Part shown: positions 3,301 through 26,005 of the stretch, in pieces | How positions within the stretch are numbered: position 1 is the stretch's first letter | Layout: every line of letters begins with the position of its first letter | Assembly: GCA_002840905.1 (NCBI GenBank) | Contig: PHDD01000005.1 | Coordinates: forward strand, 67,012-131,011 | Reading direction: 5' to 3' | Source of the DNA: Bacteroidetes bacterium HGW-Bacteroidetes-4 | Lineage (GTDB): Bacteria > Bacteroidota > Bacteroidia > Bacteroidales > SZUA-534 | Length of the DNA stretch: 64,000 nt | The notes under the pieces: generated by a model | What the model saw: only the letters and a program-made list of their open reading frames with translations | Told to the model about the DNA's origin: nothing | The model's database searches: none | Made by a program: the position numbers and the translations under genes

Positions 3301-3538
3301 AACTCCTTTTGCTGTAATTAGCATAAGCGACACCGGTGTTGGAATACCCCTTGAAAAACAAGACAAGCTATTTAAAATTGAAGAAAACTACACGACCATT
3401 GGTACCGAAAAAGAAAAAGGAAATGGTTTGGGATTAATTCTTTGCAAAGAATTTGTTGAAATGCACGGAGGCAAAATTTGGTGCTCAAGCATTGAGGGAA
3501 GCGGCAGCTCATTCTTTTTTTCGCTACCGCTACCATAA
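317..3538 (+). CDS. Multi-PAS sensor histidine kinase (soluble, orphan)
   Basis: This 1073-residue protein has no signal peptide or membrane segment, so it should sense a cytoplasmic cue. In order: a short coiled start (1-30); PAS domains at about 31-150, 155-272 and 280-395; a GAF-like region (about 405-560); two more PAS domains (about 570-690 and 700-815); a HisKA dimerization/phosphoacceptor domain with His855 in FFSIIAHDLRSPF; and a HATPase_c domain with an N box (NLISNAIKYTH), a G1 box (DTGVGIP) and a G2 box (GNGLGL). Several PAS units end in the PAC-like ITERK/ITDRKN pattern. PAS2 and PAS3 resemble each other closely and may be an internal duplication. No receiver domain is fused and no response regulator is adjacent, so the partner and signal are unknown. 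Confidence 0.92.
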   Translation: MEESSKQLNKVEQELAGALKTIDTLTDSNQKYALLLNHVNDFIWVMNKHFDITWVSPSANRILGFTDKMLLKKSLSSFCPPTTLDLIQKAIHTRMADKNNKTEKRWEFEVFNSTGATVILETITTPYFTGEGHFDGIVGVSRNITERKNFERQLSEHEASLNAQINNTSDVIWSIDTNYRIKTMNDNFKQQFKIAYGIDLKIGSEIIKCVPVTLRPMWKERYDRALKGERFTITDHFNFENVAQYVEIRFNPIRVGDEMVGVAIFSRDVTQQTLAEIQLSENEANQRALLENTDARIWSVDSDLNIILANKNFVDDFKRAFDVNLAKGVYALKNVSDPQNKIWEDRYRRALNGEKFSLVDEFNYKGVPRFTKTHFNPIIRDSKITGVSCLSQDITQQIISEKNTHESEERFKFLSKASIELLQLKTEEQILNYVTQKLQTKLENSIVLALKLNDVANTINIVSISGISEENKKNIQSILGFELTETLLELPTKTVELLRNGKFTYFKNGLSDFKPNNIKNEAIEALQKKFQISNVYTVGLKQNNNLFLALQIIGTKGTLIDDSSFIESYANLINLVLQQKQLVQSLYFSQEKFQNIFQHSNAAISIQTNNRFLLMNRAWVEITGYSIEEGLSINPENLLHPNFKNTILDFSMKQIKGELPISNYQVCIICKNKQEKWLDISTSLMNFEGQKAILVIGSDITDRKNKELRLNQLSAGITNTPMSIVITNNKGIIEYVNPYFCQVTGYSETEALGKNPRILKSGNTPKETFSELWNTILTGKVWMGELQNRKKDGTQYCEKVRIAPIFSDDGTITHFISIKEDITKQKQNLNKIEDSERKLIKLNAQKDKFFSIIAHDLRSPFSGLVGLADMLHHDFKKLDQNTLENYLGLLSNSSHQVLKLVENLLAWARTQTGRIEFKPQPLNVKNYITDVFEVQSLAAKNKQINLIDKSPEDIFVKADANMLLTILRNLISNAIKYTHKSGIVSIETSIKLYNKTPFAVISISDTGVGIPLEKQDKLFKIEENYTTIGTEKEKGNGLGLILCKEFVEMHGGKIWCSSIEGSGSSFFFSLPLP

Positions 3539-3715
3539 GGCTAAAAAAATTAACAGCGGTATTTTAAAATCAAAACACAGCGTAGACTTGATATAAATAA
3601 GCACAAAAAATTATGCTTCGCTTAAGGCCGGCTTCTTACCATATAATATTTTATTATCTTTACCCGTTGTTTTTCAGCAAACAAACCATCTATAAGAATT
3701 AAATATTTCGAAAGA

Positions 3716-24641: not shown

Positions 24642-24906
24642 ATGAACAAACCTCTTTTGCTTACCCTGCTTTTAGCTCTGGAATTTTTTTTGTAACCTCT
24701 TTATGCATAGCTTAAACATCGATGAAGAAAGTTAAACCCCTACTATTCAATCGAAAATACTGAATGAGGAACGTATTATAATGATGCAATTACCCAAGGG
24801 CTATGCCATGAATAAAGCAAATTACCCGATACATTTTTTGCTCGATGAAATATTTGGCAAGGTGGTTCTATGCAAAAATTGTAGGCATACTTTACAGCAA
24901 TATTAG
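24642..24906 (+). pseudogene. Truncated and frameshifted esterase remnant
   Basis: A 17-codon frame at 24642-24695 (MNKPLLLTLLLALEFFL) looks like a signal peptide start that runs straight into a stop. In another frame, 24736-24906 reads ...SKILNEERIIMMQLPKGY and then MNKANYPIHFLLDEIFGK before losing similarity and stopping. That pattern (S-x-L-x-EER, LP-x-GY, YP-x-x-x-LLD) matches the start of the putative esterase family (COG2819, IroE/esterase-D-like alpha/beta hydrolases: LPEGY...YPVLYLLDG). The nucleophile Ser region and everything after it are missing. I infer a secreted esterase gene destroyed by frameshift and deletion. Confidence 0.55.
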
Positions 24907-24915
24907 TATAAAAAT

Positions 24916-24962
24916 TACTGAAACAGAATCCCCAAAAGCCTTCGGGGCCCTGAGGAACAGTC
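24916..24962 (-). repeat. Degenerate tRNA-Asn-derived repeat, copy A
   Basis: This contains CTTCGGGGCCCTGAGGAACA followed by GTC, the most diverged of three copies of the block seen at 25077-25155 and 25838-25879. It keeps the GCCTTCGGGGCC core and the ...AACAGTC end that matches the anticodon arm of the tRNA-Asn at 25932-26005. It lies just after the esterase remnant. Confidence 0.45.
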
Positions 24963-25076
24963 TTCCAAAATTAATCATATAAAAGGTAAATAACCGGTGT
25001 AACTATTCGGATTAACCCTTTGCTTTTGCCATAAAATAAAAAAAACTTCACAATAATTTGTAAGTGCTTTATCTTG

Positions 25077-25155
25077 TTGGGCTCCCCTTTCGCACCCTTT
25101 CGGAAGGGACTTGAACCAACCCAGAAAGCTTTCGGGGCCCTGATGAACAGCTGTC
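25077..25155 (-). repeat. Degenerate tRNA-Asn 3'-half fragment, copy B
   Basis: Read on the minus strand this copy follows the tRNA-Asn from anticodon loop to 3' end: CTGTTCATCAGGG (tRNA: CTGTTAATCAGGG), then TTGGTTCAAGTCC (identical to the T-arm) and finally GGGGAGCCCA (identical to the tRNA end plus flank). Two insertions rich in GAAAG interrupt it: CCCCGAAAGCTTTCTGGG in the variable region and a ~20-nt stretch with CCGAAAGGG and GCGAAAGG in the T-arm/acceptor. It lacks the D-arm and the 5' acceptor strand and cannot be a functional tRNA. Confidence 0.6.
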
Positions 25156-25208
25156 TTTAGCTATATATTTTAGGGGTTTATGCAACAAGTAAAGAATTAT
25201 AAACTTTT

Positions 25209-25237
25209 TTGAAAAAGTAATAAATATATTACCTTTA
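25209..25237 (+). promoter_or_regulatory. Promoter of hicAB
   Basis: TTG at 25209-25211 (within TTTTTTG), an 18-bp spacer and TACCTTTA at 25230-25237 (7 of 8 to TAnnTTTG). The box ends 4 bp before the hicA ATG, so the mRNA would be leaderless or nearly so. Confidence 0.5.
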
Positions 25238-25241
25238 CGCC

Positions 25242-25439
25242 ATGAAATACAACGACCTTTTTAAACTGTTAAAGAACCATGGTTGGGTTGAAGTCCGGCA
25301 AAAAGGAAGTCACGTTATTTTGCATCATCCCGAAAAGGAAATACAATTAACAGTACCCTACCATGCAGGCAAAGAGGTTAAAAAAGGATTGCTAAACGCA
25401 ATTTTAAAACAAGCTGCAATTAAAACCAAAAAGCGATGA
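25242..25439 (+). CDS. hicA: HicA-family toxin (mRNA interferase)
   Basis: This 65-residue protein has the double-stranded-RNA-binding-like fold of HicA: helix 1 (YNDLFKLLKNHGWVEVRQ), then the catalytic His in KGSHVILHHP, the strand IQLTVPYHAG and the C-terminal helix VKKGLLNAILKQA. HicA toxins cleave mRNA and are inactivated by binding HicB. The stop overlaps the hicB start (4-bp ATGA-type overlap at 25436-25439), the usual coupling of the pair. It lies between two tRNA-Asn-derived repeats and next to a broken gene, so it was probably acquired. Confidence 0.93.
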   Translation: MKYNDLFKLLKNHGWVEVRQKGSHVILHHPEKEIQLTVPYHAGKEVKKGLLNAILKQAAIKTKKR

Positions 25440-25822
25440 AAAAGAAAAAAATCCATTTAGAAGTTGTAAAAGAAAATACCGGATACAGCGCTACCGGAAC
25501 TATTGAAAATAATTTTATTGCCACTGAGGCCGAAAGCTTTACAGACCTTCAAAAAAATGCAGTTGAGGCCATAAATCTGGCTTTTGATAGTGAGGAATAT
25601 ACCCTTAATGACATACAATTTGCCTACGACCTTAAAAGCTTTTTTGATTTTTATAAGGTAATAAACGCAAAGGCTTTAAGTGAGCGTATAGGGATGAACC
25701 AAAGTTTAATGGCACAATACATAAAAGGCAGCAAGAAACCCTCAACCAGCCAGTTAAAAAGGATTTTACATGGAGTACAACAAATTGGTCGCGAATTATC
25801 GGAGGCCCGTTTTTTAATGTAG
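25436..25822 (+). CDS. hicB: HicB-family antitoxin with C-terminal helix-turn-helix
   Basis: This 128-residue protein has an N-terminal degraded RNase-H-like HicB fold (about 1-60: VVKENTGYSATGTIENNFIATEAESFTDLQKNAVEAINLAF) and a C-terminal XRE-type helix-turn-helix (about 75-128: ALSERIGMNQSLMAQYIKGSKKPSTSQLKRILHGVQQIGREL). The first part neutralises HicA; the second should bind the hicAB promoter for autorepression. Long HicB forms with an HTH of this kind are known. A tRNA-derived repeat begins 15 bp after the stop. Confidence 0.92.
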   Translation: MKKKKIHLEVVKENTGYSATGTIENNFIATEAESFTDLQKNAVEAINLAFDSEEYTLNDIQFAYDLKSFFDFYKVINAKALSERIGMNQSLMAQYIKGSKKPSTSQLKRILHGVQQIGRELSEARFLM

Positions 25823-25837
25823 CCTTTCAAAATGAAC

Positions 25838-25879
25838 CTGAACCAAGCCCGAAAGCTTTCGGGGCCTTGATTAACAGTC
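25838..25879 (-). repeat. tRNA-Asn-derived repeat with palindrome, copy C
   Basis: The minus strand reads GACTGTTAATCA (identical to the tRNA-Asn anticodon stem-loop), then AGGC, the perfect 16-bp palindrome CCCGAAAGCTTTCGGG (25848-25863), then CTTGGTTCAG (T-arm, first 9 bases identical). The D-arm and both acceptor strands are absent. It lies between hicB and the terminator of the intact tRNA gene. Confidence 0.6.
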
Positions 25880-25880
25880 A

Positions 25881-25917
25881 TAAAACAAAAAAGCCTTTGC
25901 AAAAAATCTGCAAAGGC
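25881..25917 (-). terminator. Intrinsic terminator of tRNA-Asn
   Basis: On the minus strand a perfect 9-bp stem GCCTTTGCA/TGCAAAGGC (25917-25909 with 25901-25893) is followed by TTTTTTGTTTTA. It begins 15 bp beyond the tRNA 3' end. Confidence 0.85.
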
Positions 25918-25931
25918 CTTATTTTACTGGG

Positions 25932-26005
25932 CTCCCCCTCTTGGACTTGAACCAAGGACCCCCTGATTAACAGTCAGGTGCTCTAACCAACTGAGCTAAG
26001 GAGGA
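25932..26005 (-). tRNA. tRNA-Asn (anticodon GTT)
   Basis: This 74-nt cloverleaf reads 5' TCCTCCTTAGCTCAGTTGG... on the minus strand. The acceptor stem TCCTCCT pairs with AGGGGGA (one T-G pair). The D-arm holds GCTC/GAGC, the anticodon arm CCTGA-CTGTTAA-TCAGG with anticodon GTT (Asn), and the T-arm CTTGG-TTCAAGT-CCAAG. The discriminator is G; the genome continues CCC, so CCA is added post-transcriptionally. An ideal promoter lies 45 bp upstream and a strong terminator just downstream. The three fragments toward lower coordinates are copies of its 3' part. Confidence 0.96.

Follow-up and report, generated by a model that had tools for sequence, protein, structure and literature searches.

The 64,000-nucleotide stretch of Bacteroidetes bacterium HGW-Bacteroidetes-4 analyzed here (the window) holds a single tRNA gene, an intact tRNA-Asn on the reverse strand. 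Downstream of it, and on the same strand, lie three degenerate copies of its 3′ part, designated C, B, and A, with a HicAB toxin-antitoxin pair between C and B and a broken esterase-like frame beyond A. The features of the locus are as follows.

25928-26005, reverse strand: intact tRNA-Asn(GTT), the sole tRNA of the window
25887-25923, reverse strand: terminator-like hairpin (inverted repeat I5) immediately 3′ of the tRNA-Asn, kept in relatives G002 and G008
25823-25881, reverse strand: copy C, tRNA-Asn 3′ part (positions ~31 to 65) with a palindrome, by alignment
25848-25863, no strand: palindrome CCCGAAAGCTTTCGGG in C
25436-25822, forward strand: presumed HicB antitoxin ORF, from its position after HicA and a sub-threshold HTH
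25242-25439, forward strand: HicA toxin ORF (PF07927, E 2e-23)
25120-25137, no strand: palindrome CCCAGAAAGCTTTCGGGG in B, with one mismatch
25095-25108, no strand: second palindrome CCCTTTCGGAAGGG in B, between the T loop and the acceptor end
25078-25153, reverse strand: copy B, tRNA-Asn 3′ part (~34 to the 3′ end) with two palindromes, by alignment
24930-24947, no strand: degenerate palindrome in A
24918-24964, reverse strand: copy A, the most degenerate of the three, by its match to B and to a Flavobacterium copy
24700-24905, forward strand: broken esterase-like frame beyond A, a neighbor outside the unit, by a match to an IroE-like hydrolase

Previously, the initial annotation had placed three degenerate 3′-part copies downstream of the intact tRNA-Asn, and alignment confirms them. 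The tRNA-Asn scored 43.5 against B, 36.5 against C, and 22 against A (gapped alignment, on the tRNA's strand), with a maximum of 28.5 among ~3000 random window pieces; the match of A to the tRNA alone is not significant. Copy A is instead recognized through B, to which it is 87% identical over 31 nt, and through a palindromic tRNA-Asn copy of Flavobacterium tistrianum. The latter scored 69, 66, and 43.5 against C, B, and A, respectively, where the window's own tRNA as reference gave 35, 42.5, and 21 and random pieces reached at most 25. The tRNA 3′ end, TGGGCTCCCC, said earlier to be present in B, is indeed there, and B is the only copy that reaches it. An Rfam scan returned no weak tRNA matches for A, B, or C, and a search of the organism's own genome found no second tRNA-Asn. 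The flank beyond C is hicB; beyond B, where a second terminator was sought, lies an AT-rich stretch with no clear hairpin.

As in the initial annotation, HicAB lies between B and C, HicA being clear from its domain and HicB assigned by position, and inspection of the ORFs of 20 to 31 kb found no integrase. The esterase beyond A is weakly supported, with a match to IroE-like hydrolases (E 0.004) and none in Pfam.

Palindromic inserts and the locus in relatives

All three copies carry one palindromic insert, CCCGAAAGCTTTCGGGG, which has no counterpart in tRNA-Asn and had been missed in the initial annotation. It sits between the anticodon arm and the T loop in the form CCCGAAAGCTTTCGGG(G), degenerate in A. 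At up to two mismatches, GAAAGCTTTCGGGGCC occurs three times in the window, every time in a copy, against 0.04 expected; in the rest of the genome, the palindrome is absent apart from one near-match. Since one derived insert is common to A, B, and C, the copies descend from a common altered ancestor rather than from three independent att duplications, and the earlier proposal of a separate integration for each copy is not borne out. Nor are the copies a dispersed repeat, as the genome holds three of them, all here, besides the palindrome near-match. Searches of 60 relatives with the exact motif of the window, and of 247 genomes of the order with a looser form, found it in the organism's own genome only, or returned nothing.

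The same locus, in which tRNA-Asn neighbors a PfkB kinase gene, differs among relatives. Genomes G002, G006, and G008 have no copies there, and G001 has none in the visible part of a contig that stops at the tRNA. In G004, of the same family, an ORF for a GIY-YIG nuclease lies downstream of the tRNA, and upstream of it lies a full-length tRNA-Asn copy whose anticodon arm is replaced by CCCGATGATTATCGGG. Thus, presence at this one locus is patchy. In relatives, dusB does not adjoin the tRNA; therefore, the dusB-PfkB interval there is uninformative as an empty site. In G002, of the same genus, the tRNA-Asn/PfkB locus (387.6 kb) and dusB (520.3 kb) are ~132 kb apart on one contig (C34), so one of the two lineages has been rearranged at the point where dusB meets the tRNA in the window.

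GIY-YIG nuclease units at tRNA genes of Bacteroidota

A scan of 84,980 species genomes for 3′ halves of tRNA-Asn that are expanded in the middle returned 26 contigs. Fourteen belong to Bacteroidota (Labilibaculum, Marinifilum, Flavobacterium, Ulvibacter, Pollutibacter, Flammeovirgaceae, and others) and carry a palindrome of the CCCGA..TCGGG type at exactly that place, the rest being seemingly ordinary tRNAs or chance matches. Several of the fourteen have a small ORF between an intact tRNA-Asn and the palindromic copy. The five such ORFs tested, together with that of G004, encode GIY-YIG nucleases of 80 to 104 aa (PF01541, E 1e-11 to 4e-17), and in F. tistrianum palindromic copies flank a GIY-YIG nuclease gene of ~96 aa. 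The unit ORFs of relatives share an invariant Tyr, Tyr, Arg, and Glu (catalytic Tyr, Arg, and Glu), whereas the window has no such ORF, and no obvious separate DNA-binding domain accompanies them.

Across the phylum, the recurrent order is tRNA, terminator, GIY-YIG ORF, 3′ part of that tRNA with a palindrome, and a second terminator. A complete unit measures ~350 to 450 bp and its ORF 80 to 105 aa, the frame often running into the tRNA copy; several ORFs stop inside the copied anticodon arm, at ...PDC stop or ...SDC stop (GAC TGT TAA). Units occur at tRNAs for Asn, Val, Met, Phe, Leu, His, Pro, Thr, Asp, and Ser, often in tandem. The organism's own genome has a complete one at tRNA-His (L223, 1380-1821; G000:C9, ~51.2 to 51.6 kb), made up of the tRNA, a terminator, a 90 aa GIY-YIG ORF, a palindromic tRNA-His copy (TCCCGATTC..GAATCGGGA), and the terminator again. 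The C terminus of this ORF is encoded by the tRNA-His copy, with the stop inside the palindrome. Elsewhere in the same genome, just upstream of tRNA-Arg(CCG), a broken GIY-YIG piece occurs twice around an N run (L225, 1500-2006; G000:C23), possibly another decayed or misassembled unit.

The set drawn from 69 relatives comprises 70 distinct small GIY-YIG ORFs. For 19 of these, a tRNA on the same strand lies upstream at no more than 260 bp (0.1 expected by chance, a rough estimate from ~50 tRNAs in 4 Mb). Four more have a tRNA downstream, and none has one on the opposite strand. In ~24 of the 35 ORFs tabulated, a recognizable copy of that tRNA follows, mostly reaching into a duplicated terminator. 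Where small GIY-YIG ORFs lie away from tRNAs, dispersed palindromes (GTCATTCCG..CGGAATGAC type) often border them, on one or both sides at L231, L233, L240, L355, and L375 and on one side at L221 and L237.

The palindrome replaces one or two arms of the copied tRNA. Its sites are the anticodon arm, the variable region, or the T arm, and in some copies also the D arm; no acceptor-stem palindrome was seen among the copies read, except that the second palindrome of B reaches towards this stem. In some units, the anticodon arm is replaced and the T loop is intact. The general pattern of a palindrome followed by a T loop was found in 28 of 395 genomes of the phylum, a few of the matches (e.g., G358 and G506) resembling ordinary tRNAs, and the reversed control gave 0.

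Arrays of palindromic copies with no ORF are common. In mirrored arrays (L263, L265, L268, L279, L280, and L249), copies downstream retain the 3′ part of the tRNA and the terminator, and copies upstream retain the upstream flank and the 5′ part, with the 3′ end lost. The up- and downstream copies read have a common core, from the anticodon side to the T loop and including the palindrome. At L272, an array of tRNA-Thr 3′ copies with the palindrome CCCGATAGAATCGGG lies downstream of tRNA-Thr and includes no GIY-YIG ORF; another palindromic repeat, GCCTGCGAAGGCAGGC, occurs in the longer of its spacers. At L107, ARAGORN calls tRNA-Asn genes in two full-length copies with a variable-region palindrome (3358-3441 and 3487-3570). 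Palindromic copies are thus sometimes taken for genuine tRNA genes, which affects annotation and is a likely source of misannotation.

The GIY-YIG ORFs are under purifying selection, with dN/dS of 0.06 to 0.28 in pairs with an estimable dS, some dS being close to saturation. When 38 tRNA-linked GIY-YIG proteins were placed on a tree and labeled by tRNA type, the Asn label required 5 changes against 12.5 when shuffled (0 of 500), and all labels together required 13 against 15.7 (2 of 200), part of the clustering being taxonomic. Switches are also seen, such as a Val unit paired with an Asn unit and Met and Phe units lying inside an Asn clade. This suggests tRNA specificity with occasional retargeting.

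Against 50,697 phage records, 72,556 plasmids, and viral contigs, a unit protein used as the one query had no match. Matches of the pattern in viral contigs were ordinary phage tRNAs, with no GIY-YIG gene nearby where checked.

Origin of the copies

The three copies of the window are probably relics of a homing-endonuclease-like GIY-YIG unit that copies itself beside tRNA genes. HMM and tblastn searches of the window found no GIY-YIG remnant; hence, this reading rests on the copies. Judging by their architecture and patchy distribution, the units are probably mobile. The nuclease would cut the tRNA gene between the anticodon arm and the T loop, and a unit-bearing locus would serve as the repair template. 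A functional tRNA would thereby be rebuilt, and a terminator, the ORF, and a palindrome-marked copy gained; the palindrome would deprive the extra copy of its cut site. Cutting of the rebuilt tRNA would remain possible, and repeated rounds would produce tandem units; loss of the ORF would leave palindromic copies as scars. In the window, three scars remain, and the nuclease ORF has presumably been lost. The weak point of the homing model is that the rebuilt tRNA keeps an intact site, and protection from re-cutting is not accounted for. Also against it are the lack of an obvious separate DNA-binding domain in the ORFs, the intact T loop of units whose anticodon arm is replaced, and the occurrence of similar palindromes at a distance from tRNAs in some genomes.

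The place of HicAB bears on a further form of the proposal. In F. tistrianum (L117), the order is tRNA, 42 bp, copy, GIY-YIG ORF, copy; that of the window is tRNA, 47 bp, C, HicAB, B. HicAB thus occupies the place of the nuclease gene, but on the opposite strand, and may either have been carried in or be a later arrival. Among HicB homologues elsewhere, no palindromic tRNA-Asn copy was noted (L096 scored 42.7). In this further form, the palindrome-marked core would be more than a dead scar and would act within a mobile unit of a new kind: a nuclease of ~95 aa and the palindrome would jointly copy tRNA pieces up- and downstream, with HicAB-like cargo replacing the nuclease, so that such loci would be integron-like cassettes on tRNA genes. 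We hold this idea to be unlikely.

The initial annotation had seen remnants of several nested insertions, and part of this view stands. The copies do look like insertion scars, being absent from G002, G006, G008, and the visible part of G001 and not dispersed in the genome, but they do not behave as integrase duplications. Nested islands placed by integrases at the 3′ end of the tRNA, each copy being a displaced att half, would fit copies that retain the 3′ part downstream on the same strand (with the 3′ end included in B), the foreign-looking HicAB in between, and the lower GC over 24.5 to 26 kb. However, the copies have in common a palindrome that is not of tRNA origin and that recurs beside GIY-YIG genes in other genera. 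Furthermore, no integrase is present among the ORFs inspected at 20 to 31 kb, mirrored 5′ copies lie upstream of tRNAs in other genomes, and none of the copies repeats the tRNA 3′ end exactly, as an attachment site would: B alone reaches that end, and every copy has the insert. Equivalent copies elsewhere belong to GIY-YIG nuclease units, which require no integrase. We consider such islands improbable here.

It is equally doubtful that the palindrome-marked copies act as RNA and are retained for that role, e.g., as decoys for a GIY-YIG enzyme that cuts tRNA or as its regulators. Some full-length copies (L107 and L249) could be transcribed as tRNA-like RNA, and the ORF and its copy share a strand. 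Nevertheless, the window copies fold no better than shuffled sequences (z 0.51 and -1.32), and many copies are merely half tRNAs. To our knowledge, the GIY-YIG enzymes described so far cut DNA.

Plain tandem duplication of the tRNA followed by decay, with palindromes arising by replication template switching in tRNA hairpins, could account for the tandem intact tRNA-Asn copies present in relatives and for the fact that palindromes replace natural hairpin arms. In contrast, it does not lead one to expect near-identical palindromes at one place across different orders, an adjoining GIY-YIG ORF conserved under selection, or duplicated terminators, and we give it very little credence. Finally, the palindromes could be a REP-like mobile repeat in its own right, with tRNA-like hairpins as insertion sites and the GIY-YIG gene as a neighbor. 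This is highly improbable despite the similar palindromes away from tRNAs at some loci, since in the organism's own genome the palindrome is confined to the tRNA copies and one near-match and the linkage to tRNA-adjacent GIY-YIG ORFs is strong.

If true, the reading as a GIY-YIG unit would account for a recurrent class of odd tRNA pseudogenes, and for tandem arrays, in Bacteroidota and phylum neighbors. The unit would also be a selfish element of very small size, with a single gene of ~95 aa, whose spread involves the breakage and rebuilding of essential genes. Since the likely target is present in each unit both intact and, next to it, disrupted, recognition by the nuclease would be directly testable.

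Comparison with known systems

In the open-licence literature, we found no published description of these chromosomal units; an earlier description elsewhere is possible. Among the systems compared, the small GIY-YIG proteins of the UPF0213 family fall in the same length class and include the closest solved sequences (PDB 1zg2 and 1ywl, E 2e-5 and 0.03). We know of no link between this family and tRNA copies. Intron-encoded GIY-YIG homing endonucleases of the I-TevI type have the same catalytic domain as the unit ORFs, and the ORFs match TIGR01453 weakly (E 3.5e-4 and 1.6e-3, far below the cut-off). The units, in contrast, have no visible intron or recognizable DNA-binding part, and they lie beside, not inside, the functional gene.

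In tyrosine-integrase islands at tRNA genes, a tRNA gene is likewise targeted and rebuilt and a displaced 3′ part left behind. The units differ from them in having no integrase, in a displaced part altered by a palindrome, in their size of ~350 to 450 bp, and in the mirrored copies upstream. REP and CGTC-tagged palindromic repeats are also short GC-rich palindromes spread in genomes (PMC3733652), whereas the palindromes of the window are confined to tRNA pieces and, elsewhere, are tied to a GIY-YIG gene. No dedicated transposase was reported for CGTC-tagged palindromes in a 2013 survey (PMC3733652), and a candidate for that role is a GIY-YIG nuclease.

The closest known system, and the nearest precedent by experiment, is SegB of phages T4 and T6, a free-standing GIY-YIG homing endonuclease (PMC13096335; Brok-Volchanskaya 2008 as cited there). 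The motif at which SegB cuts tRNA genes, RAWTSGAAC, is a T-loop sequence in reverse complement, and through recombination SegB causes tRNA and segB to be amplified in tandem (PMC13096335). As in the units of relatives, a GIY-YIG nuclease gene adjoins tRNA genes. Unlike SegB, the units reside in bacterial chromosomes and encode a protein of just 80 to 105 aa, and their copies carry palindromes in the tRNA arms, with a functional tRNA beside a marked partial copy. If our reading is true, they would be a chromosomal counterpart of the tRNA-targeting homing endonucleases of phages.
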